Shown here: one piece after another, positions 3,198-54,630 of the stretch
Numbering within the stretch: position 1 is the stretch's first letter
How the letters are laid out: each line of letters opens with the position of its first letter
Source of the DNA: Kroppenstedtia eburnea
GTDB taxonomy: Bacteria > Bacillota > Bacilli > Thermoactinomycetales > DSM-45169
Assembly (NCBI RefSeq): GCF_013282215.1
Contig: NZ_CP048103.1
Coordinates: 3,472,001-3,536,000 of the forward strand
DNA length: 64,000 bases
Direction: 5' to 3'
Notes under the pieces: generated by a model
Seen by the model: only the letters and a program-made list of their open reading frames with translations
The model's database searches: none
Told to the model about the DNA's origin: nothing
Translations under genes and position numbers: made by a program

Positions 3198-3435
3198 CTA
3201 GAAGCGTTGTGATTTATGCGTTCATGGCCGGTCGGGATTGGGTTTCACATCTCGTTCCGTTGTTCTTGCGAGCCAAAGTCACTCCATGTGAAACCCAACC
3301 CTCCCATAGCGAGACCGGGAACGGAGTGACCTGGCGAGACTTGTGCTGGCGAGTGCATAGCGAGACCGGGAACGAAGTGACTTTAGCGAGACTTGTGCCC
3401 TATGGGTATGAATGGCTCTTTCACAATGCTTCTAG
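3198..3435 (+). repeat. MITE-like element, type 1, long form (copy 1)
   Basis: 238 bp bounded by CTAGAAGCGTTGTGA on the left and TCACAATGCTTCTAG on the right (terminal inverted repeats with CTAG at both tips). Inside are an inverted repeat GGGTTTCACAT / ATGTGAAACCC with a ~35-nt loop, then two tandem ~51-bp units beginning AGCGAGACCGGGAACG and ending with CCCTATGGGTATGAATGG. No open reading frame. It lies between fba and kce. Confidence 0.9.
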
Positions 3436-3454
3436 GCCCTGCAAGCGTTGTGAT

Positions 3455-3588
3455 TAGGGTGTGTCTGACAAAGCCATAGCTGGGGCCGGCACCTCCGATG
3501 TTTTCACCACGCTTCCAGGGGGTGGCTTGCTTTGAGGCACCGGGTGGTGCTTATTTCCTTCAGCACTTGAATTGACCTGCTACACCCC
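3455..3588 (+). repeat. Remnant of a second element type (type 2)
   Basis: Begins TAGGGTGTGTCTGAC and contains the segment GATGTTTTCACCACGCTTCC followed by a GGGGGTGGCTTGCTTTGAGG stretch and a degenerate right end CTTGAATTGACCTGCTACAC. The same right-hand sequence recurs at 49115-49203 and 51640-51713, where it ends in CCAGACAYRCCCTA, the inverse of the left end here. It stands immediately after type 1 copy 1, with a loose GCAAGCGTTGTGATT fragment between. The rest of the gap to kce (3589-3707) shows nothing recognisable. Confidence 0.6.
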
Positions 3589-3707
3589 AGAGCGTTCTTG
3601 AACGTTTTTTTCACAACGGTTGTCCCCCGGAAGCTGTTTTTCCAGTGTTCCCCTCCTCTTTTACCCGATTTTTCACCAAAATATGAGGGTTCCCCGCCGC
3701 AAACCAG

Positions 3708-4523
3708 CTACTCCTCCCCCAGTCCCAACAACCGCCGGGCCTCATCCGGTGTGGCCACCTCCCGCTCCAGTTCCGTGGCGAGCCGCTTCACCCGGGCCAC
3801 CAGTTGGGCATTGGTGGCCAACTCCCCTTTGCGGTAATAGATGTTGTCCTCCAAACCGACCCGGACATGCCCTCCCAGGGTGATGCCGAGGGCGGCCATC
3901 GGCAGCTGATGTCTGCCGATCCCCGCCACCGTCCAGGTGGCACCTGCGGGCAGCTGATCGATCAAGAGCAGGAGATGGCGGGCCGTCGCGGGCATCCCGC
4001 CGGGAACCCCCATCACAAAGTCAAAGTGGAGGTGGCCGGTGACCCATCCGTCACGAACCAATCTCAGGGCGGTTCCAACCATCCCTGTATCGAAAATCTC
4101 AAACTCCGGCCGCACCCCGTACTGCTTCATCGTCTCCGCAAAGCGGCGGATCTCCGCGGGGGGATTCATAAACACTTCCGTCCCGAAATTGACTGTGCCC
4201 GTGGTCAAGGTTGCCATTTCCGGTCCCAGAGAGACCGGTTGCAACCTCTCTTCCGCCGACATTCCGACGGCTCCCCCGGTGGATACCTGGATGATGATGG
4301 GACAGCGCTTCCGGATCTCCCCGATCGCCGCCTCGTACAACTCCCGGCTTTGACTGGGCCGACCCGCTTCATCCCGGACATGGATGTGGGCGATGGCTGC
4401 CCCCGCCTCCCATGCAAGGGCGGCCGCCTCTCCGATCTCTTCCGGGGTGACCGGAAGGTGGGGAGTCTCTTCCCGGGTCACCTCAGCTCCGACCAAGGCG
4501 GCGGTGATGATCAATTTTTCCAT
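3708..4523 (-). CDS. kce: 3-keto-5-aminohexanoate cleavage enzyme (BKACE family)
   Basis: Condenses 3-keto-5-aminohexanoate with acetyl-CoA to give acetoacetate and 3-aminobutyryl-CoA, the fourth step of lysine fermentation. The 271-residue TIM barrel shows the zinc histidines His46 and His48 in IAHIHVRD, at the positions known for characterised Kce, and a Glu at 225 in GLEDNIYY as the probable third ligand. Other BKACE members act on different beta-keto acids; the kal gene 19 bp upstream and the kdd-kam operon 20 kb away favour the lysine substrate. It appears to be last in a spo0F-kal-kce transcript. Confidence 0.87.
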   Translation of the reverse strand: MEKLIITAALVGAEVTREETPHLPVTPEEIGEAAALAWEAGAAIAHIHVRDEAGRPSQSRELYEAAIGEIRKRCPIIIQVSTGGAVGMSAEERLQPVSLGPEMATLTTGTVNFGTEVFMNPPAEIRRFAETMKQYGVRPEFEIFDTGMVGTALRLVRDGWVTGHLHFDFVMGVPGGMPATARHLLLLIDQLPAGATWTVAGIGRHQLPMAALGITLGGHVRVGLEDNIYYRKGELATNAQLVARVKRLATELEREVATPDEARRLLGLGEE

Positions 4524-4542
4524 AAGTCCACCCCCTCCCGGA

Positions 4543-4938
4543 CTATTTTTTCAGACGTTGCTTATCCACGGGAACCACACAGGTTCCCGTCGCCCGGGCC
4601 ACCAGCAGAGGTTCCTCCAGCACGCGGGCGGCGGAGGGATTGGCAGGGTCGATCTGGGCTTCGATCACTTTGTGAGCGGCGAAGCTCATCCCCCGGGATG
4701 TCTTCCCCTTCCTTGTGATCTTGCCGGTGGCCTCGATATAATCCCCTGCGTGCACCGGCGCTGTGAACTCCACTGAATCATAAGCCACAAACAGGCCCTC
4801 ATCCCCGTCCAGACGGATCAGGAGCTCCGTCGCTACATCGCCGAACAGGGACATCATTCTGGCACCGTCCACCAGATCCCCTCCATAATGAGCATCGGAC
4901 TGACTCATGCGCAAACGGATCTTCACTTCTTCCGACAT
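4543..4938 (-). CDS. kal: 3-aminobutyryl-CoA ammonia-lyase (hotdog fold)
   Basis: Removes ammonia from L-3-aminobutyryl-CoA to give crotonyl-CoA, the step after Kce in lysine fermentation. It is a 131-residue single hotdog domain, normal for Kal; [10 protein letters not shown] and the segment [14 protein letters not shown] are typical of hotdog acyl-CoA enzymes. Start ATG at 4938 follows GGGGGGAAG. It lies only 28 bp downstream of the spo0F stop with no terminator between, so it is probably read through from spo0F. A generic hotdog thioesterase is the alternative, made unlikely by the adjacent kce. Confidence 0.83.
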
Positions 4939-4966
4939 CTTTTCTTCCCCCCGTTTTGTTGGTTCT

Positions 4967-5341
4967 TCACTCTGTATGTGTGAGCTGACGAATCACTTCC
5001 GTCCGCAATTCCATCACGTCAAAAGGTTTCGTAAAGTGGGCTCGGGCCCCCAATTTGGTTGCCTCCTCCACCATATCCAATTCCCCGTAGGCTGTCATCA
5101 TGATCACGATGGCGTCCGTTTGCTCTTTTTTCAGTTGTCGGAGCAGCTCGAGACCGTCCATTCCCGGCATTTTCATGTCCAACAAAATCAAATCCGGCTT
5201 CTCCTTCCGGATGATCTCCAGCGCCAGTTTCCCATTGGCCGCCTGGAAAATGTTGATCCCCTCCCGGGAAAACACCTCCGTTAAAAGAATGCGAATCCCG
5301 TACTGATCATCGACAACCAGGACTTTTTTGTCTGAAAGCAT
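4967..5341 (-). CDS. spo0F: Sporulation phosphorelay response regulator Spo0F
   Basis: Single receiver domain that carries phosphate from sporulation kinases to Spo0B and on to Spo0A. The 124 residues have the Asp10-Asp11 acidic pocket, phospho-acceptor Asp55 in LLLDMKMPG, Thr/Ser position MMTAYG and Lys105 in FTKPF. The ATG at 5341 is chosen because GGAGGG lies 7 nt upstream; an in-frame ATG at 5386 lacks a site and adds 15 atypical residues. A type 1 repeat sits 107 bp upstream. No clear sigma-A or sigma-H promoter was recognised in that gap. The kal-kce pair follows at 28 bp. Confidence 0.95.
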
Positions 5342-5447
5342 ACTTTTCCCTCCTCGTGAAACCCGATTGGCATGTACAGGAAGCATCCATCCTCAACCCG
5401 GTTGGCTTTTTCGATCTATGTATCCGGTATCAACTTTTGGGAGCTGA

Positions 5448-5689
5448 CTAGAAGCGTTGTGATTTATGCGTTCATGGACGGTCGGGATTGGGTTTCACAT
5501 TGCGTTCCGTTGTTCTTACGAGCCAAAGTCACTCCATGTGAAACCCAACCCTCCCTGCATAGCGAGACCGGGAACGGAGTGACCTAGGCGAGACTTGTAC
5601 TGGTGAGTGCATAGCGAGACCAGGTGCGAAAGCACCCTGGCGAGACTTGTGCCCTATGGGTATGAAGGGCTTTTTCACAATGCTTCTAG
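5448..5689 (+). repeat. MITE-like element, type 1, long form (copy 2)
   Basis: 242 bp bounded by CTAGAAGCGTTGTGATTTA and TTTTTCACAATGCTTCTAG. The inner hairpin arms GGGTTTCACAT / ATGTGAAACCC and the two tandem AGCGAGACC units are all present, with the second unit varied (GGTGCGAAAGCACCCTGG instead of GGGAACGGAGTGACCTGG, which itself adds a small GGTGC/GCACC palindrome). It separates the spo0F start from the pyrG 3' end. Confidence 0.9.
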
Positions 5690-5831
5690 TGTCGGCGAGG
5701 AGAAAGTGGGTTCTTTTTTATATTCACAACCTGATGTCGCTTTTCCTCCTATTCAAGGCCGAAAAAGCTGTAAGGAGAGGATGCGACTCCTCTTCCATCC
5801 CCGTTTTCATCAACTTCCTGAACAAAAGCAT

Positions 5832-5857
5832 AAAAAAAAGCGCGCCGGAGGGCGCGG
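5832..5857 (-). terminator. Rho-independent terminator of pyrG
   Basis: On the minus strand, CGCGCC-CTCC-GGCGCG is followed by a run of eight T, 35 bp after the pyrG stop codon. Confidence 0.85.
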
Positions 5858-5891
5858 TGAAAAGATGGGATTTTGTCCTGATTCGGCCCGG

Positions 5892-7523
<1,632 letters not shown>

Positions 7524-7551
7524 TTATCGTTCCCAGAATACTTCCAGACAT

Positions 7552-7586
7552 TAAAAAAAGCGCCTCCCTATGGTCAGGGGGCACCT
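7552..7586 (-). terminator. Leader terminator (attenuator) of pyrG
   Basis: On the minus strand a hairpin GUGCCCCCU...AGGGAGGCGC is followed by a run of seven T, about 45 nt before the pyrG ATG and about 70 nt after the predicted transcription start. The ascending arm holds CCCCC, which can pair with extra G residues added at a GGGC transcript start. This is the arrangement known for pyrG control by CTP in Gram-positive bacteria. Confidence 0.75.
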
Positions 7587-7654
7587 TTACGCGCAAAAGG
7601 CTTATTCAGCGGCAACGGCCGCCATGCTGTAAAAGTGAAAAACAAAATTTAGCC

Positions 7655-7691
7655 CATATGTTACTTTACTGCCGGGATCCCGCTTTGTCAA
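7655..7691 (-). promoter_or_regulatory. pyrG promoter with GGGC initiation site
   Basis: Minus strand: -35 TTGACA (7691-7686), 17-bp spacer, -10 TAAAGT (7668-7663), 7 bp, then GGGC starting at 7655. The -35 overlaps the rpoE stop codon. The GGGC start is the signature of reiterative G addition when CTP is low. Confidence 0.8.
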
Positions 7692-8131
7692 GATCCCTCT
7701 TCTTCCTCTTCCGGGGTTTCATCATCAAACTCCCCGTCGTCAAAGTCCCCGTCAAAATCCTCATCCCCGTCGGGATCCATCTCTTCCAGGTCCGGCTCCT
7801 CCTCATCAAACAGATCCTCTTCCAGTTCGTCGACATCCTCTTTGACATTCTGGGCAACGGCGGAGTCGGTGGCCTGTTCCGTGGGATACCACTGTTTCAG
7901 TCCCCACAGGCTTTTGCCGACACAGATGAAACGGCCATCAATATTGATCTCCGTATACAGCTGGGCGATCAGCCGTTGGGTCTCCTCCTCCGAAAACCCC
8001 TTCAACCCGGCAATCTCCCCCATGATTTCCCGATATAACAGCGGTTCACCTTTTTCATGCAATATATGATAAGCGATGTCGACCATGGCGGTCTCCCGGA
8101 TGTCTTCTTCATTCAACTCTGCCAGGTTCAT
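7688..8131 (-). CDS. rpoE: RNA polymerase delta subunit
   Basis: Gram-positive RNA polymerase accessory subunit that promotes enzyme recycling. 147 residues: a folded N-terminal winged-helix domain (MNLAELNEEDIRETAMVD to about residue 90) and a highly acidic disordered tail rich in Asp and Glu with few other residues (about 100-147). Start ATG at 8131 sits in GTGAGGGATG. A good promoter lies ~70 bp upstream. The stop overlaps the -35 of pyrG. Confidence 0.95.
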   Translation of the reverse strand: MNLAELNEEDIRETAMVDIAYHILHEKGEPLLYREIMGEIAGLKGFSEEETQRLIAQLYTEINIDGRFICVGKSLWGLKQWYPTEQATDSAVAQNVKEDVDELEEDLFDEEEPDLEEMDPDGDEDFDGDFDDGEFDDETPEEEEEGS

Positions 8132-8197
8132 CCCTCACGCACTTCCTTCCTGTGAAAAGTCTGGGGATCTCCGCAAACTCTAGTTTACCGTATGTCT

Positions 8198-8225
8198 ATT
8201 TTAACCAAAACCTTGACGAAGTCAA
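8198..8225 (-). promoter_or_regulatory. rpoE sigma-A promoter
   Basis: Minus strand -35 TTGACT (8225-8220), 16-bp spacer, -10 TAAAAT (8203-8198), giving a leader of about 60 nt before the rpoE ATG. Confidence 0.65.
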
Positions 8226-8266
8226 CTGATGGGGGAGGTCCCCGTCGGATTCCCCGTGCCGGTAAT

Positions 8267-8291
8267 AAAAAAAGCCGGCCCGCCGGCCGGC
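8267..8291 (-). terminator. Terminator of the thl-hbd-acd-meaB-tetR-icmF operon
   Basis: On the minus strand GCCGGCC-GGCG-GGCCGGC is followed by seven T, 22 bp after the icmF stop. Confidence 0.88.
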
Positions 8292-8313
8292 AAGGAGTGG
8301 ATGTTGGTTCAGG

Positions 8314-11300
8314 TTACATATTGCGCCGGTATTCACCGCCGACTGCAAACAAGGCATCTGTGATCTGTCCCAGACTGGCATGCCGAACGGTATGCATCAG
8401 TTCCGCAAACAGATTGCCATTCTCCCGGGCTGTCTGCTTCAGTCGGTGGAGGGCCGCTTTCGCCTCTTCCCGATGAGCCTCCTGGAATTTGCGCAGGTTT
8501 TGGATCTGGGCCTGTTTTTCTTCGGGGGTGGCCCGGGTCAGCTCCACTTCCGGTTCCGTCTCTTCCCCTTCTTTGAGGAAAGTGTTCACCCCGATGATCG
8601 GCAGTTCCCCGGAGTGTTTCTTGGTCTCGTAATAGAGGGACTCCTCCTGGATCTTACCCCGTTGATACTGGGTTTCCATCGCCCCGAGGACGCCTCCCCG
8701 ATCGCTGATCCGGTCAAATTCCGACAATACCGCCTCTTCCACCAGATCCGTCAGCTCCTCGATGATGAAGGAACCTTGCAGCGGGTTTTCGTTCTTGGCG
8801 AGACCCAGCTCCTTGGTGATGATCATCTGGATGGCCATGGCCCGTCGCACCGATTCCTCCGTCGGCGTCGTGATCGCTTCATCATAAGCGTTGGTGTGGA
8901 GGGAATTGCACTGGTCATAGATGGCCATCAAAGCCTGGAGCGTGGTCCGGATATCATTGAAGTCGATTTCCTGAGCGTGCAGGCTGCGGCCGGAAGTTTG
9001 GATGTGATATTTCAACTTTTGGCTCCGTTCACCGGCTCCATACAGCTTTTTCATCACCACCGCCCAGATGCGGCGGGCCACCCGGCCGATCACGGAATAC
9101 TCCGCATCCAGCCCGTTGCTGAAAAAGAAGGAGAGGTTGGGGGCAAATTGATCGATGTCCATGCCCCGGGAGAGATAATACTCCACATAGGTGAAGGCGT
9201 TGGCCAGGGTGAAGGCCAGCTGGGAGATGGGATTGGCTCCCGCCTCGGCGATGTGATAGCCGCTGATGCTGACCGAATAATAGTTGCGCACCCGGTTGGC
9301 AATAAAGTATTCCTGGATGTCCCCCATCATTTTCAGAGCAAACTCGGTGGAGAAGATACAGGTGTTTTGTCCTTGGTCTTCTTTCAGGATATCCGCCTGC
9401 ACCGTACCCCGGACTGTGGACAGGGCCCGGGCCCGGATCTCCTCCTGTTCTTCCGGTTCGGGGTCCCTCCCCTTCTGTTCCCGGAACTTGTCGATCTGCT
9501 GATCGATGGCCGTATTGAGGAACATGGCGAGAAGGATCGGGGCAGGTCCGTTGATCGTCATGGAAACACTGGTGTTGGGAGCACACAGGTCAAAACCGGC
9601 ATACAGCTTTTTCATATCCTCCAGAGTGCAGACACTGACCCCGCTCTCCCCGATCTTGCCATAGATATCCGGCCGTTCATCGGGGTCCCGTCCATACAGT
9701 GTCACCGAATCAAAGGCCGTGGACAACCGCTTGGCCGGCTCCCCTTCGGAAAGGTAGTGGAAGCGGCGGTTGGTCCGCTCCGGGGTCCCTTCGCCGGCAA
9801 ACATCCGCTTGGGATCTTCGTCCGCCCGTTTGAAGGGGAAGACTCCCGCGGTGAAGGGGAATCGTCCCGGTACGTTCTCCAGCATCCCCCACCGCACCAG
9901 CTCGCCCCGGTCCTCAAACCTGGGCAGGGACACTTTGGGAATGCGGGTTCCGGACAAGGTTTCCGTGTACAGAGGCGTGCGGATCTCCCGCTCCCGGATG
10001 GTCACTTTATACTCATCCTGCCGATAGGCTTCCTTCAGCTTGGGCCACTCTGCGAGGAAACGTTTCGTGTCGGGGTCCATCCGGGCTTCCACTTCCCCTT
10101 TGACCCGCTGCAATCTCTCCGAAACTCCCTCCTCCGCCTCGCCGTACTCCGTAAGGGTTTCCAGGCTCCCCTCCAACTGATGGGACTTCCGTGCCAACCG
10201 GCTCTGCTCTTCCACATGCTGCCGGTATTTGCGGACGGTGTTGGATATGTCCCGCAGGTAATGACTTCGTTCCGGCGGGATGATGTGGCCGTCTCCCTGC
10301 TGATCTGCGCCCGGCTCCCAACCGGACTTCCAATCCAAGGACATCTTCTCCCTCAACCGATCCATCAGCTCCCGGTAAAACCGGTTGGTGCCGGGATCGT
10401 TGAACCGGCTGGCCATCGTACCATAGACGGGAATCTCCTCGTCAGGGGCATCAAAGAGTCCATGGTTGCGCCGATACTGTTTTTTCACGTCCCGCAGAGC
10501 GTCTTTGGAGCCTTTGCGGTCAAATTTGTTGATCACGACCAAATCGGCGTAATCCAGCATCTCGATCTTCTCCAGTTGGGAGGGGGCCCCGAATTCCGAG
10601 GTCATCACATAGACGGACAGGTCGCTGACATCGACCACATCGGCATCCCCCTGACCGATTCCGCTGGTCTCCAGAATAATGAGGTCAAAGCCGGATCGTT
10701 TCAAAACAGTCAGAGCTTCTTGTGTGGCTCCGGAGAGCTCCGAGCGGTTTTTCCGGGTGGCCAGACTCCGCATGTATACCCGGGGATGGTGTACGGAATT
10801 CATGCGGATCCGATCCCCGAGAAGCCCTCCGCCGGTTTTCTGCTTGGAGGGGTCGATGGACAGGACCGCCACTTTTTTATCCGGGAAGTCCGCCAGGAAC
10901 CGCCGCACCAGCTCATCGGTCAAGGAGCTCTTACCGGCACCGCCGGTGCCGGTGAGGCCGACCACGGGCACTCGCTGTTCAAAAGCTTCTCCTTTCCCGG
11001 GGGTGGATTGCCGCTGCCCGGAAGTGTTTCCATCGGATGTCTCCAACACATCCCGCTCAGCCAGAGTGATCAGGCGAGCCACCGCCCGGTGATCCCCCTT
11101 CTCTGCGGCCTCCCGCTCCCAGGACTCCCGTTCCACTGTGGGAAAATCACAGGCTTTGATCATATGGTTGATGATCCCCTGCAATCCCAGGTTTCGCCCG
11201 TCTTCCGGAGAAAACACTTTGACCACGCCGTAAGCTTCCAATTCGCGGATTTCCCGGGGAACGATCACCCCGCCTCCTCCTGCGAACACCCGGATGTGAT

Positions 11301-11574: not shown

Positions 11575-11575
11575 G

Positions 11576-19856: not shown

Positions 19857-19869
19857 AGGAATGCTCCTT

Positions 19870-20113
19870 TAGGGTATGTCTGATCAAACTCTGGGCCGAG
19901 CCGGTCGGGATGGGGTTTCACATGACCTTCCCGGTTATTCTTACGAGCCAGAGTCACTCCATGTGAAACCCAACCCTCCCTACATAGCGAGACCGGGAAC
20001 GGAGTGACCCTGGCGAGACTTGTGCTGGTGAGTGCATAGCGAGACCGGGGGCGAAAGCACCCTGGCGAGACTTGTGCCCTATGGGTATGAATGGTTTTTT
20101 CACAACGCTTCTA
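19870..20113 (+). repeat. MITE-like element, hybrid ends (copy 3)
   Basis: Left end TAGGGTATGTCTGATC is of type 2; the body from GGCCGAGCCGGTCGGG onward, the hairpin arms GGGTTTCACATG / CATGTGAAACCC, two tandem units (one with GGGGGCGAAAGCACCC) and right end TCACAACGCTTCTA are type 1. It lies directly upstream of the J-domain/VanW gene on its promoter side. Confidence 0.85.
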
Positions 20114-20368
20114 ATGGAGATGTTTGAATCTCCCCTCCAATATCCAGGCAATCGCTGTCACCCGAAATCTATAATATTGCCTCAATTATTTCTTTGCAAA
20201 AATTATTTTCACCTTTAATAATAAATGAAACCCGGGGGAAGCCCCCGGGTGGATCATGTTACCTGTTTGATTGAGCCGGTCGGGTCGGGGTTCCACGTGA
20301 CCTGTCAAAGTCCGAACTGCCAGCCCACCCGTGTGAAATCCCGGAATCCGTCTCCGGCATTATTGGCT
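20114..20368. other. fadF 3' flank with decayed element fragment
   Basis: Contains an AT-rich stretch, the fadF terminator (separate entry), and at 20270-20345 a degenerate piece of the type 1 core (GAGCCGGTCGGGTCGGGGTT, CCACGTGACC). No gene seen. Confidence 0.4.
20222..20250 (-). terminator. Terminator of fadF
   Basis: On the minus strand CCCGGGGG-CTT-CCCCCGGG followed by TTTCATTTATT, about 120 bp after the stop codon. The T-run is interrupted. Confidence 0.6.
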
Positions 20369-32260: not shown

Positions 32261-32359
32261 CTCACAAGGGGGTGAAATAAATTTTTCAGTTGGCAGATGC
32301 AAAAAGCTTCTCCTCGGCCGGGGAGATCCTGTATCCTCCCCCGACCGTTGAATCCACCA

Positions 32360-32523
32360 GGGGTTTCTGATAAATCTCTGGGCCAAGCCGGTCGGGATGG
32401 GGTTTCACATGTCGTTTTCGTTGTTCTGACGATCCAAAATCACTCCATGTGAAACCCAACCTTCCCTCTGTTACTTCTACAACGCCTCACATTCCACGGA
32501 AGATTATTACCAGACACGCCCTA
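32360..32523 (+). repeat. MITE-like element, type 2 ends with type 1 hairpin core (copy 4)
   Basis: Left end degenerate (GGGGTTTCTGATA), core GGCCAAGCCGGTCGGG then arms GGGTTTCACATG / CATGTGAAACCC, no tandem units, right end CCAGACACGCCCTA. Its last bases CTA are shared with the CTAG that opens copy 5, so copy 5 appears to have inserted at its tip. Confidence 0.75.
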
Positions 32524-32761
32524 GAAGCATTGTGATTTAGTGCGTTTGAAGGCGGTCGGGATTGGGTTTCACATTTCGTTCCGTTGTTCTTACGAGCCAA
32601 AGTCACTCCATGTGAAACCCAACCCTCCCTACATAGCGAGACCGGGAACGGAGTGACCTGGCGAGACTTGTGCTGGTGAGTGCATAGCGAGACCGGGAAC
32701 GGAGTGACCTGGCGAGACTTGTGCCCTATGGGTATGAATGGCTTTTTCACAACGCTTCTAG
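32521..32761 (+). repeat. MITE-like element, type 1, long form (copy 5)
   Basis: 241 bp from CTAGAAGCATTGTGATTTA to TTTTTCACAACGCTTCTAG, with both tandem units nearly identical (AGCGAGACCGGGAACGGAGT each). The 100 bp after it up to the activator stop contain a further fragment (CTCCCGGTCTCGCTGCGACA). Confidence 0.9.
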
Positions 32762-34367: not shown

Positions 34368-34390
34368 TTTTGATCACTTTCGCTGTCACA

Positions 34391-34577
34391 AGAATCGTTG
34401 TGAAAATGTCGTCATACCCACAGGGCACAAGTCTCGCCAGGGTGCTTTCGCCCCCGGTCTCGCTATGCAGGGAGGGTTGGGTTTCACATGAAGCGCCTTT
34501 GGCTCGTCAGAACAACGAAGCGGAATGTGAAACCCAATCCCGACCGGCCCGGCCAGCACTAATTCACAACGCTTCTA
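34391..34577 (-). repeat. MITE-like element, type 1, inverted orientation (copy 6)
   Basis: The only copy in the opposite direction. From AGAATCGTTGTGAAAATG through CATACCCACAGGGCACAAG, one tandem unit, then arms GGGTTTCACATG / ATGTGAAACCC, to TTCACAACGCTTCTA. It lies between the divergent activator and the 34623 gene and could carry or displace their promoters. Confidence 0.85.
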
Positions 34578-34622
34578 AATCTCCACGCTTCAAGGGATCA
34601 CTCAGTACAAGGAGGGATCGGG

Positions 34623-34970: not shown

Positions 34971-35498
34971 ATGGAGATCGGCCCTCCCTGGGATCGATGT
35001 AAACCCTCTTTGAAAAAGAAAAGGGCTCCCTTGGCGGAAGCCGGAAAAGAATCACCGGGGAAGCATGGGGTGGATTCAAACTTTCACAGCGCAGAGCGGG
35101 AGCCAAACCGCGGACAAACTGTCAGATATCACCGATACCGGGAGCTGAATGCCATAAAAAGCAAGTTTGCATGATCACCTCCTGAAGAATGGATGATGGA
35201 AATCCGACATACCCGAAGTCGGGATGGTTGATCATCGGAAAACATGCATGGGAAAGGGAGTCGTGTACTGTCAAAGCGAGACCGGGAGGAAAACGGCTTG
35301 GGCCGGACTTGTGCCCTGCGGGGGCGAGTCACCTGAGAAACACGATCACCTCATCCCATATGTGGTCAACCCTCCTACCTGACCCGAAGTAAAAGCGATG
35401 TGGAGGGGAAGTCGATCATCTGACGGGCGAATCACCCGGATTTTTTCGGCTTAAAGGGGTGATCCGAACATCCGGTTGATGATTGCCCGGGTCGGAGA
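34971..35498. other. Gene-poor region
   Basis: 528 bp. A decayed fragment of the type 1 element can be recognised near 35265-35335 (AAGCGAGACCGGGAGG, GGACTTGTGCCCTGCGGG). A minus-strand AGGAGGTGATC-ATG at 35171 opens only a 17-codon frame. No other gene or RNA recognised. Confidence 0.4.
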
Positions 35499-43750: not shown

Positions 43751-43985
43751 ACCCAGAATTATTGTGATTTAGTGCGTTTGAAGGCGGTCGGGATTGGGTT
43801 TCACATGACCATCCGGTTGTCCTTACGAGCCAAAGTCACTCCATCTGAAACCCCACCCTCCCATAGCGAGACCGGGGAGCGAAGCGACCCTGGCGAGACT
43901 TGTACTGGTGAGTGCATAGCGAGACCGGGAACGGAGTCTTGGCGAAACTTGTGCCCTGTGGGTATGACGATGTCTTCAACCGGAG
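43751..43985 (+). repeat. MITE-like element, type 1, long form (copy 7)
   Basis: Left end CCAGAATTATTGTGATTTA is degenerate, with arms GGGTTTCACATG / CATCTGAAACCC, two tandem units (GGGGAGCGAAGCGACCC variant), and a decayed right end CATGTCTTC-like (GATGTCTTCAACC). It sits 18 bp past the speB stop and upstream of DUF1934, filling nearly the whole gap. Confidence 0.8.
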
Positions 43986-45722: not shown

Positions 45723-45930
45723 AAGTTTCAATGGCTCCTTCCGATGGTCCGCCCTTGGAATGAAAAACCTTTCCTTAGGATAATCCAACTCTCCTCCCGA
45801 GACAATCATGAGCTCCCTCCTCTCGCCCGATGCATAGAGGAATCACTTTTCCCTCATACTACTTCATGGGTTTTTCCATCCTTTTCATTGCTTGCCGTCC
45901 ATGGTGGAGCCATTCGAGGAGTGGGATCCG

Positions 45931-47976: not shown

Positions 47977-47995
47977 ACCCGGCCCACCATTTTTG
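47960..47995 (+). terminator. Terminator of the class A PBP gene
   Basis: ATGGTGG-A-CCGG-TTAAA-CCCGG-C-CCACCAT followed by TTTTGCATTT; the stop codon lies in the loop. Confidence 0.85.
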
Positions 47996-47999
47996 CATT

Positions 48000-48242: not shown

Positions 48243-48312
48243 GACAACCCCTCCTTTTCTGCTTAGCATGCTCCACAGAAGGGATCGCCAAAGATGGAAA
48301 CCACATGAAAAA

Positions 48313-48359
48313 GACACCAAAAGGGCGGGCTCATCGGCCCGCCCTTTTGGTGTCCTAGC
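48313..48359 (-). terminator. Terminator of ywhD
   Basis: A nearly perfect 18-bp stem GACACCAAAAGGGCGGGC / GCCCGCCCTTTTGGTGTC followed on the minus strand by TTTTTCATG. Confidence 0.88.
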
Positions 48360-48441
48360 AAGTTGGTTCCGTAACCTGGATCTAAGTGTACCCCACGTCA
48401 TCTCCCCGAACAAGGAGACCCGTCGATTGTTCACACAGCGT

Positions 48442-48942
48442 TCATGATTCCGCAGCCAAGGCTTCCTTCAATTCATCGGATGACCGCTTCCACATGTCCG
48501 GGTCATTCTCCATCAACAACCGGCGCAGGGCACCCCTTTCCACATCATTCAATTCCTCCACCCGGATCCGCCGCTTCAGGGCATCATCCATCCGGTTGAC
48601 GTGGTCCGCCAGATTTTTCCATCCCCGTCTGATTTCCCGGTTCACCCGCATCGTGCAGGCCGCCACACCGGCATAATAGGGTCCTTCCTCTTTGCGATCC
48701 ACAGCCACCCAAACCACCCGGTATTCTGTTCCACCCGGGACTTCATCCGGGTTGCTCAAAAACTTGATTCCCCGCTCCACCCTGCTTTTGGCATGAATCA
48801 GGCCGAGGTCGATCCGGGCCTCATCCCCTTCGATCAGAACGGCGGAAAGATTGCTCAGATTGAGTGTACCCGTATGGTAACCACCGTGGGTGGTGGAGTC
48901 ACCCCGAATGATGTTGAATTCCGATTTTTTATTTCTGCTCAC
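48442..48942 (-). CDS. ywhD: YwhD family protein
   Basis: 166 residues of the uncharacterised Firmicute YwhD family (FNIIRGDSTTHGGYHTGTLN, LSNLSAVLIEG; VERGIKFL). The GTG at 48942 is chosen for AAGGGGGGAG before it; the frame up to 48984 has no site. Its location near pbpG-speE is conserved with Bacillus. No function known. Confidence 0.88.
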   Translation of the reverse strand: MSRNKKSEFNIIRGDSTTHGGYHTGTLNLSNLSAVLIEGDEARIDLGLIHAKSRVERGIKFLSNPDEVPGGTEYRVVWVAVDRKEEGPYYAGVAACTMRVNREIRRGWKNLADHVNRMDDALKRRIRVEELNDVERGALRRLLMENDPDMWKRSSDELKEALAAES

Positions 48943-49002
48943 CGAACTCCCCCCTTTTTTGTATTGTATCTCAGGGCGCATCACCTTTCAAAAAGGGGAG
49001 CA

Positions 49003-49204
49003 CTAGAAGCGTTGTGATTTAGTGCGTTTAAAGGCGGTCGGGATTGAGTTTCACATGTCGTTTTCGTTGTTCTGACGATCCAAAATCACTCCATGTGAAA
49101 CCCAACCCTCCCTCCGATGTTTTTACCACGCTTCCAGGGCGTGGCTTGCATTGATTCAAGCCGTATGGTTTCCTTTGACACTTGAATGACCAGACATGCC
49201 CTAG
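49003..49204 (+). repeat. MITE-like element, hybrid type 1 left / type 2 right (copy 8)
   Basis: Left end CTAGAAGCGTTGTGATTTAG, arms (GGGATTGAGTTTCACATG / CATGTGAAACCCAACC), then type 2 sequence GATGTTTTTACCACGCTTCC and right end CCAGACATGCCCTAG. The final CTA is the reverse complement of the TAG stop codon of the following minus-strand kinase gene. Confidence 0.82.
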
Positions 49205-50973
49205 AAACTTCTCAACATATTGACCCGTTCCACCACTTCACTCCGGTTGAGATTGGGAACCAGGGGCACCTGTTCCGGCTCCGGCGGGCTTTCCTCCTCC
49301 CGCACCGGTTGCCTCAGAGGCATGTGGATGTTAAAGGTGGTGCCGCGCCCCGGTTGACTTGTCACATGAATCTGCCCTCCGTGCTCCGATATAATGCGAT
49401 GGCAGATGGAAAGTCCCATTCCGGTCCCATCCCCTTTGGTGCTGAAAAAGGGATCAAAGATGCGGGACATATGTTCCGGAGGGATCCCGCTGCCGCTGTC
49501 CCGGACACGGACCACAACCCGGTCTCCCGCCTCTTTCCAACCGACGCTGACCATCCCCTTGCTTTTGAGGGATTCCAGACCGTTTTGCACCAGATTGATC
49601 AAAACTTGCTTCAGTTGCTCCGTGTCCGCTTCGACAATCACCGGAGAAGCCGGAGGCCGGGGGACCAATTCATGTCCCATCAAAATGGCCCGGGGGTTGA
49701 GGAGCTGCAGGACATCATCGATCAATCGATCCAGGTTGAACAGGGTATGCCGGACCGGCCGGGATTCGCTCAGGTGCAAGAACTGTTTCAACAGATCGTT
49801 GATCCGATCGATCTCAGGGAGGATCACGGACTCCCATTTTTTCACTTCCGGAGATTCCGCCGCCGAGATCTGGATAAAACCGCGGATGGAGGTCAGGGGG
49901 TTGCGGATCTCATGGGCCAACCCCGCCGCCAGCAGACCGACGGCAGACAACTTCTCCAGGTGGCGCCGCTGTTCTTCCTCCCGGTGCCGGATCCGGGTTT
50001 GCTCAATGGACAGCCGGTATTCCGCCAGCCGGATCAGTTCGGCTCCATTTTGGGCATCCATCGGATAGGAAGCTGTACCGAGACAGTAGTGGACCCTGCA
50101 TCGTTCCGACCGAAAACCATTGATCACCTGTTCCACCGTATCCAGAATGAGGCGCATGGTGGAATCATCCCCCATCAGCCCGATGGCGAACTGATCCCCG
50201 TCATAGCGTGCCACCTGTGCATAGGGAGGGAGTTTCTTTTTCATTTCCCGTGCGATCCCGATCAGCAGTTGGTCCCCGGCATCGACTCCTTCCTTCGTGT
50301 TTACCTGCCGGAAGTCGACCAAGTCGACACAGATCACATGATAAGCTTGTTCTGCCGCCAAACAACGGGACAAACTTTTGGTCACTTGTTCCTGAAAGCC
50401 ACCGAAATTGTACATGCCGGTCAAATAGTCTCTCCGGGAAATCTCCTTCAGTTCATCGATGTGGGAATGAAGACGGGTGTGGGCATCTTCCACCTTCCGA
50501 AGGAGCTTTCTGTTTTCCTCCTTCAAGTCATCCCACCGGCGCTGCACACGGCGAAGGTAGATACCCAACCACGCGGAACAGGCGAAGAGGGTGATCTCAC
50601 CCAGCAGGCGAAAGTAATCTTCTCCCGCCGCAGCACCGAAACCCACCCATTCGTACACCAAGAAAAAACAGATGGCGGAAACCACGGTGGTTTCTGTGGA
50701 TAAACGATCATGTAAGAGGGCCAGCACCACAAGGTAAACCCACAGAAAGGACACATCCCCGGTCAGACGGTCCGAGACCGCCAACAGAAGGAGCACGATC
50801 AACGGATACAGCAGAAAAGGGAACTTCGGAGCCCATTTGCGTCTCATCCAAAGCATCAGCAGCAGGATTCCCAGGGCGACCCCGGTTGTGAACCACCTCA
50901 GCTCCGGTTCGAAAAGCCACGGAGCCATTGCTCCAAGGGCTTCATACCTGTTTGCCAAGTTTGAACCCCCCAT
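49201..50973 (-). CDS. Membrane sensor histidine kinase with degenerate GGDEF domain
   Basis: 590 residues. Five or six N-terminal hydrophobic helices (to about 160), a GGDEF-type domain (about 190-345) whose active-site motif reads RYDGDQFA instead of RYGGDEFA, then a HisKA domain with the phospho-histidine in AGLAHEIRNPLTS and an ATPase domain with NLVQNGLESL, DSGSGIPPEH and GTGMGLSICH. The mutated motif suggests no cyclase activity, perhaps a GTP or nucleotide sensor. It resembles orphan sporulation kinases and could feed Spo0F. Start is uncertain: ATG 50973 or TTG 50958 after GGGGGG. Confidence 0.87.
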   Translation of the reverse strand: MGGSNLANRYEALGAMAPWLFEPELRWFTTGVALGILLLMLWMRRKWAPKFPFLLYPLIVLLLLAVSDRLTGDVSFLWVYLVVLALLHDRLSTETTVVSAICFFLVYEWVGFGAAAGEDYFRLLGEITLFACSAWLGIYLRRVQRRWDDLKEENRKLLRKVEDAHTRLHSHIDELKEISRRDYLTGMYNFGGFQEQVTKSLSRCLAAEQAYHVICVDLVDFRQVNTKEGVDAGDQLLIGIAREMKKKLPPYAQVARYDGDQFAIGLMGDDSTMRLILDTVEQVINGFRSERCRVHYCLGTASYPMDAQNGAELIRLAEYRLSIEQTRIRHREEEQRRHLEKLSAVGLLAAGLAHEIRNPLTSIRGFIQISAAESPEVKKWESVILPEIDRINDLLKQFLHLSESRPVRHTLFNLDRLIDDVLQLLNPRAILMGHELVPRPPASPVIVEADTEQLKQVLINLVQNGLESLKSKGMVSVGWKEAGDRVVVRVRDSGSGIPPEHMSRIFDPFFSTKGDGTGMGLSICHRIISEHGGQIHVTSQPGRGTTFNIHMPLRQPVREEESPPEPEQVPLVPNLNRSEVVERVNMLRSF

Positions 50974-51115
50974 TTTTTCCAATCGGCGATTCAGGTTGTA
51001 TCCTTAACAACGGTTTTACTTCCCCGTCCGCTTTTTTCTCTCGTGGCAGATTGCCGATGAAATCAAATTATGATTCCATGTTCGCTCCCATTTTTCCTTC
51101 CTGAAAATCAGCATT

Positions 51116-51369
51116 CGACAAAACCTATCAAATACTGATATAAATTTCTCTCCTTCCTTTGTGTTAAAATCCGAATTGGAAATATTCTAACCCGGATTCC
51201 TGTTTATGTATTTCTTCGGGTTTAACAAAGAACTGGATGGCAACTACGGGAAGAGCGCCCACCAAGCGGGGGGAATATGAGCATCTGATGGCCGGTCCCC
51301 GAACCGGAAACCATCCACCCCTTGTCCGCAAAACAGCCCCCTCTTTCCCCGGGGGCTGTTGTTTTTTAT
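51116..51369 (+). ncRNA. Candidate non-coding RNA with own promoter and terminator
   Basis: Plus strand: -35 TCGACA (51116-51121), 18-bp spacer, -10 TATAAA (51140-51145), start near 51152; about 180 nt without a credible frame; then a terminator AACAGCCCCC...GGGGGCTGTT plus GTTTTTTAT (51332-51367). Internal pairings include CTTTGTGTTAAA / TTTAACAAAG, GGATGG / CCATCC and CCGGT-CCCCGA-ACCGG. It does not match riboswitch, 6S, SRP or tmRNA patterns I know. No gene follows in sense, so a trans-acting RNA is more likely than a leader. Confidence 0.45.
51332..51367 (+). terminator. Terminator of the candidate RNA
   Basis: 10-bp stem AACAGCCCCC / GGGGGCTGTT with a loop TCTTTCCCC, followed by GTTTTTTATC on the plus strand. 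Confidence 0.8.
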
Positions 51370-51472
51370 CGTTCTCCTTTCCCGACCCTCTGTGACCTTC
51401 TCTCTGTAAATATTCGTCAAGTCTCACGTGACTGCCAACACTCCGGCATCCGGAAGCGCAGATCCACCCGCT

Positions 51473-51713
51473 CTGGAAGCGTTGTGATTTGGTTCTGGCT
51501 GGGTCGGTCGGGATTGGGTTTCACATGTCGTTTTCGTTGTTCTTACGATCCAAAATCACTCCATGTGAAACCCAACCCTCCCATAGCGTGACCGGGGAGC
51601 GAAGCGACCCTGGGCACGACTTGTGCCCTATGGGTATGACGATGTTTTCACCACGTTTTCCAGGGTGTGGCTTCTTTGAGGCACCGGGCACTTGAATCAC
51701 CAGACACACCCTA
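51473..51713 (+). repeat. MITE-like element, hybrid type 1 left / type 2 right (copy 9)
   Basis: Left end CTGGAAGCGTTGTGATTTGG, arms GGGTTTCACATG / CATGTGAAACCC, one tandem unit (GGGGAGCGAAGCGACCC), CCCTATGGGTATGACGATG, then type 2 sequence and right end CCAGACACACCCTA. The final CTA is the TAG stop of the next minus-strand gene. Confidence 0.82.
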
Positions 51714-52364
51714 AACCATCCGACCGATCCAACGGGGGGCTTGTTCCTTCTTCTGTTCCCCAGGATCCCCCTGTGCCTCTTCCTGCCAACGATACAGAAC
51801 CCGTTGACTCCCTCCCTTCGGTCTTTTCCCGGGCCTGGTTGCCGAAAAGGCATCCACTCCTTCCCGGACCGCCGCCGTTGTCCATTGCTCCCGACCGTCG
51901 GGTGGAGACTCTCCCCCGCCTTGCCAATGGACCATCATTCCGTTGGCGGCAGGCTCGTACACCGGCGGCTCCGGACTCTTCCACAGATTGTTGTAGCGCT
52001 GCCGGGCCAGGGGCGTCCGCTCATGTTCCTCCAAGAGCGTATGTACGATGGTATCCTTCAAAATCGTTTTGATTTCCTCACTGCGATACCCGTTGTCCAC
52101 ATCCTCCACCCACTCAAACACGGGACCATCCTCTTCCGTAAAGGTCACGTTTCGCTGAGTGGGGGACAATTCCTTCATTGAGGTGAGCCGTTCCCGGAAG
52201 GAATCGGCATCACAGATCGTGTCCAGCGGAAAGTAGATTCCTTTCAAATAGGACTGAATGCAGTATTTAACCAGCAACGGAAACTGTCCTCTGGGCAGGA
52301 TATCATACCAGTTGCGAAGAAAACGGTCTTTCTTTCCGAGGTAAACCCCCACGGTGATCGCCAT
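51711..52364 (-). CDS. Hypothetical protein, 217 residues, C-terminus ended by repeat
   Basis: Not recognised. N-terminal part (MAITVGVYLGKKDRFLRNWY, DILPRGQFPLLVKYCIQSYL) has the look of a small helical or ribbon-helix-helix domain; the middle is acidic (FTEEDGPVFEWVEDVDN); the C-terminal 60 residues are Gln/Gly/Lys/Arg-rich and low in complexity. ATG at 52364 has only a weak site (GGCGGG). The stop lies in the end of a repeat element, so the original protein may have been longer. Confidence 0.55.
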   Translation of the reverse strand: MAITVGVYLGKKDRFLRNWYDILPRGQFPLLVKYCIQSYLKGIYFPLDTICDADSFRERLTSMKELSPTQRNVTFTEEDGPVFEWVEDVDNGYRSEEIKTILKDTIVHTLLEEHERTPLARQRYNNLWKSPEPPVYEPAANGMMVHWQGGGESPPDGREQWTTAAVREGVDAFSATRPGKRPKGGSQRVLYRWQEEAQGDPGEQKKEQAPRWIGRMV

Positions 52365-52717
52365 TCTGCTGACCCGCCTTTCATGGATTGGGATCAGGCG
52401 TGCTGACCAGCTGTTTTTTGGGTGTGGAAACCGTGTTCCGCCGCGCGACCGTTGCACCCGCAGGGCACAAGTCGCGCCGGGACACGACTCCCTGTCCTTT
52501 TCCAGTTGATCAACAGTCCTGGATTGGGTTGGGGATTCCGTCCGGCCGTCGGCCGGAACGGAACCGGAACCGGAAAACAGGCAAAGAAGGTGGCGCTGCA
52601 TTTTTTTCTCTCCATTCCGCCGCGAACCCTTCTTTTGGTAAATATACTATCAATGGCTTGCCTGCATCGTCAACAGAATATTTTGTCGAATATGGACAAG
52701 TTCTCCCGGAACCTGGA
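52365..52717. other. Gene-poor region with decayed repeat fragment
   Basis: 353 bp. A fragment CACCCGCAGGGCACAAGTCG near 52450-52470 is a relic of the type 1 tandem unit in reverse. No convincing gene or promoter seen. Confidence 0.35.
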
Positions 52718-53509
52718 TCACCTGATGATCCGCCGATGGTTGTTCAGGATTCGCCGATACAAGGACGGATTTTCGATCTTGCTGAACATGCGGAAGTAAG
52801 GACGGGTGTTCACTTCAAAAATCCACGGCTTGCCCACCCCGTCCAACCCCACATCGATCCCCAACTCCTTCAGCCCCGGAAAACGCCGCTCCAAAACGTC
52901 TGCGGTCAAATACGAGATTTTTGCCAACTCCCGCATGATTTTCTCGGGAAAGATCCCTTCTCCATCCATGGCTTGCAGAGCTTTTTTCATCTCCATGGGT
53001 TGACCGCCTTTACAGTGATTGGTGACAAACCGCCCCCGGGCGGCCACCTTTGCCACCATGCCGCTGAGGACCCATCGATTCCCGGGCTTTTGCAACAAAA
53101 TCCGGATATCGAAGGGCCTCCCTTCGATTGTGGCCAACTCCACCCCTTCCTGCAAAATATACCTGCGGGAGGGGGACAGAAGTTTTCCCACCGTCCGACC
53201 CAAGTTCCCTTCCTCCACCATCCGGCAGTTCTTTCGAAAACAGATCTCAAACCGGTGGGCGAGCTTCCGGATCCGGATAATTCCGGAACCACCTCCTCCT
53301 TTATCCGGTTTTACAAATACGGAGGGGGATTGCCTCAACATTTTTTTTATGTTTTCTTCAGAATACCAGACAGTTTCCGGCAGACAGGAGCGCAGATGGG
53401 GGTGTTGCCACATCACAACGTGTTTCATGCCTTTGCTGGCGATCTGACGGTATTTTCGCTTACGCTTCACCACAGCCACCTCTTCCGTCTCATCGGCTTG
53501 TCGCGACAC
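52718..53509 (-). CDS. YheC/YheD-like ATP-grasp protein (spore coat-associated family)
   Basis: 263 residues. ATP-grasp elements: VFVKPDKGGGGSGIIRI (phosphate loop), YILQEGVELATIEGRPFDIR, and metal-binding IFEVNTRP near residue 240. Members are found in endospore-forming Firmicutes and linked to the spore coat; the ligated substrate is unknown. Shorter than YheC/YheD of B. subtilis, which carry extra N-terminal domains. Divergent from the metalloprotein gene. Confidence 0.8.
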   Translation of the reverse strand: MSRQADETEEVAVVKRKRKYRQIASKGMKHVVMWQHPHLRSCLPETVWYSEENIKKMLRQSPSVFVKPDKGGGGSGIIRIRKLAHRFEICFRKNCRMVEEGNLGRTVGKLLSPSRRYILQEGVELATIEGRPFDIRILLQKPGNRWVLSGMVAKVAARGRFVTNHCKGGQPMEMKKALQAMDGEGIFPEKIMRELAKISYLTADVLERRFPGLKELGIDVGLDGVGKPWIFEVNTRPYFRMFSKIENPSLYRRILNNHRRIIR

Positions 53510-53626
53510 TGTCAGTCTATTCCCCCTTCGGTTGTTCAGGAAGGGTTTTTCCGCCCAAAATTGCGGAATGTGTTAAAATGTAAAAGCAAACACCCTTAAG
53601 TTCACCATGGAAGGGATGGTGAAAAA

Positions 53627-54496
53627 ATGCGCAAAAAACATCCCTCTCGTATAAAATCTTTCAGCTTGTGGTTTCTCTTGTTCATCCTGTTGCTCACATT
53701 TCTCAGTCCCCAGGGCAAGATGTTTGCCCAGCCTGTTCTCCATAAAGGAAATCAAGTGTTGGAAAGCTGGCGCTTCCGGGATTACCAACAATGGTCCGGA
53801 AAAAATGTGATCGTAACCTATCATTCCGGATTCCGGAACCAGGCAAAGTTGGTGGCACAAGAGATGGATCGGGTCCTCGCCGGTTTTGAGAAGGAGTATG
53901 GATTTGACCCGGGCCGGCCTGTTCCCGTCTTTCTCTTTCCGGACCGGACCTCCCTGCAGGATCACTTTTCCTGGGATGAGGATCAAAGTGCCACGGGAGT
54001 CTACTTTTCCGGTGCGATCTATCTTCTGAATCCCCAGGTGTGGAGCGAAGAGTTTCCTTCTGCCGAGTTGGAGCCGACACGCTGGGCTCTCCTCTTCCAT
54101 AAGCAGGGACCCCTCTACCACGAAACGGCCCATTTCTATCTGGACCGGTACACCGGTGGCAATTATCCTCTCTGGTATACTGAGGCTTTCGCTCAATGGG
54201 TGGAATACCGGGAGCTCGGCTATCAATGGGTGGTCCCGGCGAACGATCTGTCCCGGCATCCGCTCTATGAATATCGGGAACTGGCGGACCGCTTCCAGCA
54301 GCTTCCCAACCAGGCTCTCGCCTATCGACAATCCTTTCTGTGGCTCCGTTGGATGGTGGAGGCCCATGGGGACTCCTCCCTCGACCGCCTCCACCACCGA
54401 CTCTCCCGGGGAATTCCTTTTGATTCCGCCTGGAAACAGGTCTTTGGAAGCTCTCCCGGGGAATCCTTTGAAGAATGGCGCCGACAGACAACCTAA
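53627..54496 (+). CDS. Secreted peptidase-MA-like metallohydrolase
   Basis: 289 residues. An N-terminal signal/anchor (basic RKKHPSRIK, hydrophobic FSLWFLLFILLLTFL, possible cleavage near MFA). The catalytic region has LYHETAHFYLDRY, an HExxH zinc motif, followed by the Glu in WYTEAFAQWVEY about 20 residues on, as in gluzincins of the peptidase MA family. Substrate unknown. The TAA stop overlaps the CTAA tip of a repeat element. Confidence 0.82.
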   Translation: MRKKHPSRIKSFSLWFLLFILLLTFLSPQGKMFAQPVLHKGNQVLESWRFRDYQQWSGKNVIVTYHSGFRNQAKLVAQEMDRVLAGFEKEYGFDPGRPVPVFLFPDRTSLQDHFSWDEDQSATGVYFSGAIYLLNPQVWSEEFPSAELEPTRWALLFHKQGPLYHETAHFYLDRYTGGNYPLWYTEAFAQWVEYRELGYQWVVPANDLSRHPLYEYRELADRFQQLPNQALAYRQSFLWLRWMVEAHGDSSLDRLHHRLSRGIPFDSAWKQVFGSSPGESFEEWRRQTT

Positions 54497-54630
54497 TAGT
54501 GTTGTGATTTAGTGCGTTCTTGGACGGTCGGGATTGGGTTTCACATGTCCTTCCGTTGTTCTTACGAGCCAAAGTCACTCCATGTGAAACCCAACCCTCC
54601 CTCGGATGAATCTATTCACAACGCTTCCAA
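54493..54630 (+). repeat. MITE-like element, type 1, short form (copy 10)
   Basis: 138 bp: CTAATAGTGTTGTGATTTAG, arms GGGTTTCACATG / CATGTGAAACCC, no tandem unit, and right end TTCACAACGCTTCCA. It fills almost the entire gap between the metalloprotein stop and walR, ending 29 bp before the walR ATG. Confidence 0.85.

Follow-up and report, generated by a model that had tools for sequence, protein, structure and literature searches.

The stretch of DNA analysed here, referred to as the window, comprises bases 3472001-3536000 (64 kb) of the closed 3,564,999-base genome of Kroppenstedtia eburnea, and holds ten copies of a short non-coding repeat. We consider it likely that these copies belong to a high-copy family of non-autonomous DNA transposons, i.e. 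miniature inverted-repeat transposable elements (MITEs), which has a modular interior, was moved in trans by a transposase of the insertion sequence (IS) type IS5 or IS701, and carries a structured unit of ~53 bp that is common to several carriers. The initial annotation, made from the letters of the window alone, had called the copies MITE-like, and this description was borne out by inverted ends, target duplications of 4 bp, lengths that fall into discrete classes, a location between genes, an extrapolated copy number in the hundreds, and presence or absence between species. Moreover, it could be observed directly that one unit was gained or lost at a site occupied in both species and that the same core occurs in a second frame.

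A complete copy consists of ~138 bp plus 0-3 modules of ~53 bp. In the frame termed type A, 11-bp terminal inverted repeats, AAGCRTTGTGA, are bordered by 4-bp YTAR target duplications, and the interior is made up of a head hairpin of ~70 bp (CGGTCGGGATTGGGTTTCACATG .. CATGTGAAACCCAACCCTCCCT) and 0-3 tandem units, so that the order of frame, head, units and tail corresponds to the A-(B)n-C modular arrangement of BOX-type elements. Copies were called with a profile of the head hairpin in the window and 60 stretches of 20 kb each, which together make up a sample of 1.264 Mb (35% of the genome), and the anatomy was evaluated on the first 100 heads, 47 of which had both type A ends within reach. 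These 47 two-ended copies ranged from 116 to 297 bp without any transposase gene, and their lengths clustered at ~138, ~190, ~243 and 297 bp for 0, 1, 2 and 3 units (20, 12, 10 and 5 copies, respectively); 16 of the 20 copies without a unit fell at 135-139 bp, 11 of the 12 with one unit at 188-195 bp, 9 of the 10 with two units at 229-245 bp, and those with three units at 294-297 bp. The units have a single entry point, at which CCCTG directly adjoins TGAATGGC in copies without a unit and reads CCCTG-CATAGCGAGAC..CCCTATGGGTA-TGAATGGC in copies with a unit. The flanks were identical in 26 of the 47 copies, 17 of them palindromic (CTAG, TTAA) and 9 non-palindromic (including CTAA/CTAA, TTAG/TTAG and CAAG/CAAG), and were matched only in inverted form in 2. 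Tandem dimers with one common CTAG were also found (e.g. 1178827/1179067 and 3424268/3424399), as would be expected had the second copy used the target duplicated by the first.

All ten copies of the initial annotation are present in the window, nine on the + strand and one (34.4 kb) on the - strand as it had reported (Table 1). The arm CTAGAAGCGTTGTGA gave 18 matches in the window at ≤3 mismatches against 0.86 expected, a number reached by none of 100 shuffles, and the hairpin arm GGGTTTCACATG gave 28 matches at ≤2 mismatches against 8.2 expected; both arms of the inner hairpin were found within 1 mismatch in 10 of 10 copies. The terminal arms, described as shared by all copies, do not occur in every one of them: the copies at 19.87 and 32.36 kb start with other left ends (TTAGGGTATGTCTGATC.. 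and AGGGGTTTCTGATAAATC.., respectively), the right arm of the copy at 43.75 kb is lost, and those at 49.0 and 51.5 kb are degenerate. Similarly, the range of zero to two tandem units holds for the window but not for copies elsewhere, which contain up to three. Among the decayed fragments that had been listed, two were recovered as decayed units by a covariance model (E 1.8e-10 at 35.3 kb, E 6e-4 at 52.4 kb), and those at 18.0, 20.3 and 32.8 kb appear to be remnants on visual inspection only. The long-stem RNA fold of a whole copy is a computational prediction, for which one copy gave z -3.7 on one strand and -4.4 on the other.

Across the whole genome, the arms at ≤1 mismatch were found 125 times forward and 124 times reverse (backwards control, 0 and 0), so the consensus is abundant beyond the window; its absence there had been named by the initial annotation as contrary to its proposal. 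The sample contained 139 heads, which extrapolates to ~390 genome-wide; leaving out the window, 129 heads in 1.2 Mb, or one per 9.3 kb, correspond to ~383 genome-wide if the sample is fair. The window itself (10 copies in 64 kb) is only mildly richer than the rest. According to a purpose-made simple gene finder, by which 78% of the sample is coding, 1 of the 139 heads overlapped a predicted gene by >30 bp (2 of 100 with an earlier version of the gene finder), in agreement with the non-coding nature ascribed to the copies.

Comparison with Kroppenstedtia guangzhouensis (G001), the comparison genome of the same genus, carried out the empty-site check that had been suggested and revealed one filled/empty site, one unit-level difference and one double insertion. 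The species name of G001 rests on its units, which in C1 and C7 have the same positions as in the contigs NZ_BMEX01000001 and NZ_BMEX01000007, and the other relatives were named likewise. Positions 31.0-51.0 kb of the window align with G001:C5, in which a K. guangzhouensis copy with CTAG on both sides corresponds to an empty window site at 41.58 kb, and from which both window copies at 32.36-32.76 kb are missing. The 34.4 kb copy is common to both species, with one extra 53-bp unit in the window genome, and the copies at 43.75 and 49.0 kb also differ between the species, with flanks too changed to read. The shared 34.4 kb copy supports the long residence that had been proposed; conservation at orthologous sites as parts of known RNA families, named beforehand as contrary evidence, was thus seen in its first part in this one copy of K. 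guangzhouensis only, and its second part did not occur. Rfam gave 0 matches at gathering score in the window, and at E up to 1 over 6 loci only two weak matches, both off the units. In the ten genomes of the family, exact YTAR-arm counts were 214 in the window genome, 57 in K. guangzhouensis, 92 in M. profundicolus (G009), 67 in Paludifilum halophilum (G007), 4 in M. thermohalophilus (G003), 3 in G006 and 0 in four others. G002 and G008 had 0 exact YTAR-arms, yet 20 and 78 exact unit matches, respectively, so the unit exists there without an exact copy of the type A arm.

The head was also found in a second frame with the terminal repeat GGGYGTGTCTG. When GGGYGTGTCTG-like sites 90-700 bp apart were paired at ≤3 mismatches over both sides, 12 of the 21 paired sites in the sample held the head, together with 0, 1, 2 or 4 units, and TA stood beside both ends in 5 of these 12 copies. 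The core common to both frames extends from CGGTCGGGAT to CCCTCCCT and includes the units (by eye). Single GGGYGTGTCTG sites at two mismatches numbered 445 against 284 in the backwards control, which is little above control, so the argument rests on the paired sites and on the head common to both frames.

The ~53-bp unit can be described as a conserved hairpin in which compensatory changes have occurred, among them the replacement of the tandem G.A core by Watson-Crick pairs. It is composed of GCAUAGCGAGAC, a variable stem-loop and GCGAGACUUGUGC, plus a small 3' hairpin, and on the GCGAGAC strand the first CGAG lies opposite the second CGAG as C-G, G.A, A.G and G-C. Among 230 distinct units with the exact frame around the two free bases, tandem GA/GA was found in 186, fully Watson-Crick combinations in 21 (GT/AC 14, GC/GC 5, AC/GT 2) and half-changed or other combinations in the remaining 23; the GT/AC core occurs in both Kroppenstedtia and the genus g40, and AC/GT in g40. 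Other pairs were evaluated in alignment A1, a random draw, capped per group, that holds 92 of the 266 distinct units (a 93rd drawn, L146, was excluded for its poor match). In this alignment, the pair neighbouring the G.A core was C-G in 67 units, U-A in 21, A-U in 1 and other in 3, the pair above the inner G.A stack was G-C in 53, A-U in 19, G-U in 6 and unpaired in 11, and U-A replaced C-G in the second hairpin of the unit in 26. Both-sided changes over 20 pairs amounted to 101 cells against 34.5 in shuffles (0 of 500 had as many), counts that are inflated by relatedness among the units, and slid versions of the structure all gave lower scores. The predicted outer stem CATAG/TTGTG varies hardly at all, and part of the second hairpin overlaps with the 3' strand of this stem. 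By inference from the letters, the GA strand would be the one that folds, as RNA or single-stranded DNA, because the opposite strand would have C.T mismatches at the same place.

The unit also occurs beyond its Kroppenstedtia frames. The exact two-block pattern AGCGAGAC-N14..22-GCGAGACTTGTGC was found in 16 of 398 Bacilli genomes of four families (7 of the 10 family genomes, 3 of the genus Shimazuella, 2 of the genus g40 and 4 of the genus Brevibacillus), and the backwards control was 0 in all rows; among the relatives named, G028 and G029 belong to Shimazuella and G388 is Brevibacillus centrosporus. A scan of named genomes gave at least 120 stretches with the unit, and two Clostridia-type metagenome-assembled genomes, possibly misbinned, were among the matches listed. 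In M. profundicolus, 110 arrays of 1 to 9 units were found, some ending at contig ends, and their direction relative to the genes on both sides was same/same in 33 and opposite/opposite in 14. Many of these arrays (L042-L161) lie at contig ends, and they probably break short-read assemblies and are hence undercounted. In Brevibacillus G380, ten single units lie inside a different dispersed element of ~165 bp (L204, L212-L220), which begins with GTACAGATAGG.. and finishes with ..GGTTTTCTAA, both conserved. Terminal inverted repeats could not be seen in it by eye, and 9 of its 10 copies lie directly behind terminator T-runs. No exact YTAR-arm was found among 19 Brevibacillus loci; of 18 distinct Brevibacillus units, 12 were same/same and 0 opposite/opposite relative to the genes, and the upstream gene ran in the same direction for 16.

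When the unit model was run over 398 genomes of the phylum, matches were found only in the source genome, G514 and G595, but this draw used strict filters and 14 scored candidates per genome, so absence in it is weak evidence. The match in G595 (E 2.3e-4) is probably due to chance, and those in G514, which belongs to another family in the phylum, had E 6.6e-6 and 8.9e-5; the G514 loci are C1:2046206-2046261 (L296) and 1062573-1062627 (L293). There the tandem unit, GCATAGAAGACTTGCCAGCTTTGCTGGTTTAGTCGCGCTTGTGC, has diverged, agreeing in its outer bases and roughly in its period but having another core. Phages and plasmids searched by blastn and viral contigs searched with the exact pattern gave 0 matches, and a literature search by title found no published description of the repeat, its motif strings appearing only in an unrelated wheat paper. 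The presence of the folded unit on different carriers in distant bacteria hints at a shared, undescribed structured module. We advance only tentatively the wider idea that this module might be an undescribed structured RNA family, built around the exchangeable tandem G.A core, that has a conserved host partner and spreads among Bacilli genera, and perhaps other classes, on at least three unrelated non-autonomous carriers.

The one-way orientation of the copies in the window is part of a bias across the whole sample, directed against both the replication fork and the genes on either side. By eye, base 1 of the genome was recognised as the site of the DnaA protein, and the G/C skew changes sign between 1.82 and 1.89 Mb in the sampled stretches; 101 of the 139 heads oppose the fork (binomial p 9e-8). 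In one-way gene pairs, 78 heads are opposite to the genes and 23 in the same direction; heads between one-way genes against the fork are split 4:3, those in divergent gaps 11:7 and those in convergent gaps 7:6. Insertion by replication strand as the cause could not be separated from gene direction over the 139 heads, because only 7 heads lie in one-way gene pairs opposing the fork (4:3). Either replication or read-through transcription may underlie the bias. Of ten neighbour genes tested, 9 were assigned to a family (fructose-bisphosphate aldolase, BKACE enzyme, two response regulators, CTP synthase, arginase family and others), and their functions are unrelated.

In the mechanism that we propose, a DDE transposase of IS5 or IS701 type would have moved the frame in trans, the number of units may have been altered by slippage or unequal recombination, cores and units may have been exchanged between co-resident frames, and the unit may be retained because its GA-rich strand folds, as RNA or single-stranded DNA. 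Several observations weigh against this reading. The orientation bias of 73:27 (101/139 heads) goes beyond what transposition alone explains, the flanks of 19 of the 47 two-ended copies match neither way, and the presence/absence sites are not base-precise since their flanks have diverged. The G+C content of the twelve strong window units is 0.52-0.62 (0.68 and 0.64 in the two decayed ones), unlike typical MITEs, for which AT-richness is typical and not required. Out of the 44 units other than GA/GA, two acceptable pairs are formed in 29, a modest excess over the 24.0 of the shuffles (14 of 2000 shuffles reached this number), and pairing is incomplete in 7, which are GA/AC half-swaps. Finally, the genome yielded no transposase gene whose ends match (two PF01609 genes without these ends, no PF13586, no PF13340 and one PF13546 fragment). 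An intact IS701-type gene at 767722 (L203, G000:C1:766222-769806; 408-amino-acid frame, NCBIfam NF033540, E 3e-49) has ends ATGAGCAAAA and, by eye, TTAG/CTAG-like (YTAR-like) flanks; it may share the target of the family but has other ends, and we do not claim it as the mover. A relative of this element with 80% identity is present twice in M. profundicolus.

The full-length transposon with the same ends that the initial annotation had envisaged did not turn up in the genome, and in the ten family genomes no PF13546 gene lies inside a YTAR-bordered pair of AAGCRTTGTGA ends; single two-mismatch matches to this end occur in some of the 11 transposase loci checked. In the collected loci, arm pairs 600-3000 bp apart numbered 96 at two mismatches, 5 of which had equal flanks. 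Two of these were rejected as autonomous elements, one because the repeats enclose host genes and the other because the match lies in a gene by chance; the remaining three correspond to adjacent copies of the family. A related autonomous IS with the same ends is typical for a MITE and not required. As no gene with the right ends was found, we infer the mover, which may have been lost.

Other explanations put the unit or its sites in the foreground. The host might select for the ~53-bp unit as an RNA whose structure has a function, be it regulation or protein binding, with the mobile frames as mere vehicles; we regard this as unlikely. It would fit the compensatory changes across genera, including G.A to Watson-Crick and C-G to U-A at the neighbouring pair, the inference that only the G.A strand and not the C.T strand would hold the invariant core, the occurrence of units in four families, also on a carrier without the type A frame, and the same-direction upstream genes in Brevibacillus (16/18 distinct units). 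However, the gene orientation varies, being against the genes in Kroppenstedtia (78:23), with the genes in Brevibacillus and mostly with them in M. profundicolus, and the ten tested neighbours are functionally unrelated. Since the orientation relative to genes depends on the lineage, cis-regulatory use in a fixed place is ruled out.

It is very improbable that a Y1 transposase (IS200/IS605 or REP-associated tyrosine transposase, RAYT) acts on the lagging strand and uses the unit as a hairpin of single-stranded DNA, in the manner of repetitive extragenic palindromic (REP) sequences. Such a mover could explain why 101/139 heads oppose the fork, and the Brevibacillus carrier without a visible terminal inverted repeat, directly behind terminator T-runs, is of the expected kind; but the fork bias is inseparable from gene direction (4:3, 11:7, 7:6), and the Kroppenstedtia element has inverted ends and YTAR duplications. 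Y1_Tnp (PF01797) gave 0 matches in the window genome, K. guangzhouensis and Brevibacillus G380, all of them unit carriers, and only 3 of 30 Y1 loci had a weak unit match; a Y1/RAYT mover was rejected on these grounds. We give equally little credence to host-used DNA sites of the bacterial interspersed mosaic element (BIME) or REP kind, such as nucleoid, gyrase or mRNA-end elements, spread by recombination instead of transposition. The nearly exclusive intergenic placement, the palindromic nature and the M. profundicolus arrays, in which up to 9 units stand in tandem, are in keeping with such sites, as opposed to the defined ends with target duplications, the species-specific sites and the lack of a consistent position relative to genes. 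REP/BIME sequences with RAYT transposases are interspersed hairpins, often tandem, and resemble the present family in this respect; they differ in that the Kroppenstedtia genome has no Y1 match and the element has defined inverted ends and target duplications.

A family of MITEs with a modular interior has known counterparts. In BOX elements of Streptococcus pneumoniae and S. suis, self-folding inner modules, tandem and variable in number, are enclosed by outer modules that have inverted ends, with the S. suis boxB inner module in two outer frames and 125 BOX in the pneumococcal genome studied (PMC3049150). The present family likewise has an outer frame with variable tandem inner units and an inner unit common to two frames, a likeness of architecture, and we do not file it as BOX; it differs in its unrelated host group, in its ~390 copies (extrapolated), and in a unit that covaries, crosses Bacilli families and occurs outside the frame. 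BrickBuilt of Porphyromonas gingivalis is an intergenic MITE without internal transposase in which a tandem repeat, a 23-nt minisatellite, is trapped between leader and tail, with 19 copies in ATCC 33277, a narrow host range and ends resembling resident IS elements (PMC4596501). Here too a MITE contains an inner tandem repeat, is intergenic and has no transposase inside, but its units are ~53-nt hairpins that cross families, and no IS with these ends was found. IS5 makes a 4-bp YTAR target duplication (PMC10359306), and IS701 members are said to make duplications of 4 or 5 bp, two Geobacillus ones having made 4-9 bp (PMC8024623). The 4-bp YTAR duplication is thus shared with IS5-type MITEs, whereas no IS with AAGCRTTGTGA ends was found in the genome.

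Modular MITEs are therefore already known, and what is new is a conserved covarying unit that occurs beyond its frames. Inner repeats of modular MITEs are usually regarded as passengers, but here the inner unit is more widespread than the frame, and its fold is kept with compensatory changes across genera as the carriers change. This makes possible a direct test of whether small repeats persist through recognition of a structured module by the cell or the mover. The covariance model of the unit can annotate at least 16 Bacilli genomes, and should the unit turn out to be inert, Kroppenstedtia and its relatives would nevertheless have been shown to contain a dense BOX-like family.

Table 1. Copies, lone units and remnants of the repeat family in the window (positions counted from the first base of the window)
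Feature	Position	Strand	Description
Type A MITE, 238 bp	3198..3435	+	Both arms, CTAG each side, head and 2 units (3305-3354, 3356-3411)
Type A MITE, 242 bp, query copy	5448..5689	+	Both arms, CTAG each side, head and 2 units (5558-5608, 5610-5665)
Hybrid copy	19869..20114	+	Type B left end TTAGGGTATGTCTGATC, head, 2 units (19983-20033, 20035-20090), type A right arm
Type B copy	32359..32520	+	Head, 0 units, right end ..CCAGACACGCC abuts next element; absent from K. guangzhouensis
Type A MITE, 241 bp	32521..32761	+	CTAG each side, head and 2 units (32632-32681, 32683-32737); absent from K. guangzhouensis
Type A MITE	34389..34578	-	Head and 1 unit (34412-34467); same site in K. guangzhouensis, there without unit
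Type A copy, worn left arm	43753..43972	+	Head, 2 units (43862-43913, 43915-43967), right arm lost, right end approximate
Type A copy, 135 bp	49003..49137	+	0 units, degenerate right arm TTACCACGCTTCCAG; more repeat-like sequence to about 49206
Copy with type A left arm	51473..51663	+	Head, 1 unit (51582-51639), degenerate right arm TTTCACCACGTTTTCCAG
Type A MITE, 138 bp	54493..54630	+	0 units, worn target copies CTAA / CCAA
Decayed lone unit	35272..35327	+	Covariance model R1, E 1.8e-10
Decayed lone unit	52452..52501	-	Covariance model R1, E 6e-4
Decayed head hairpin	20288..20341	+	By eye, with two 2-mismatch arm matches; missed by head profile at E 1e-3

In addition to these copies, a repeat-like stretch without a head, CTGCAAGCGTTGTGATTAGGGTGTGTCTGAC..CACCACGCTTCCAG, with mixed type A and type B ends, was observed at positions 3439-3518 of the window.

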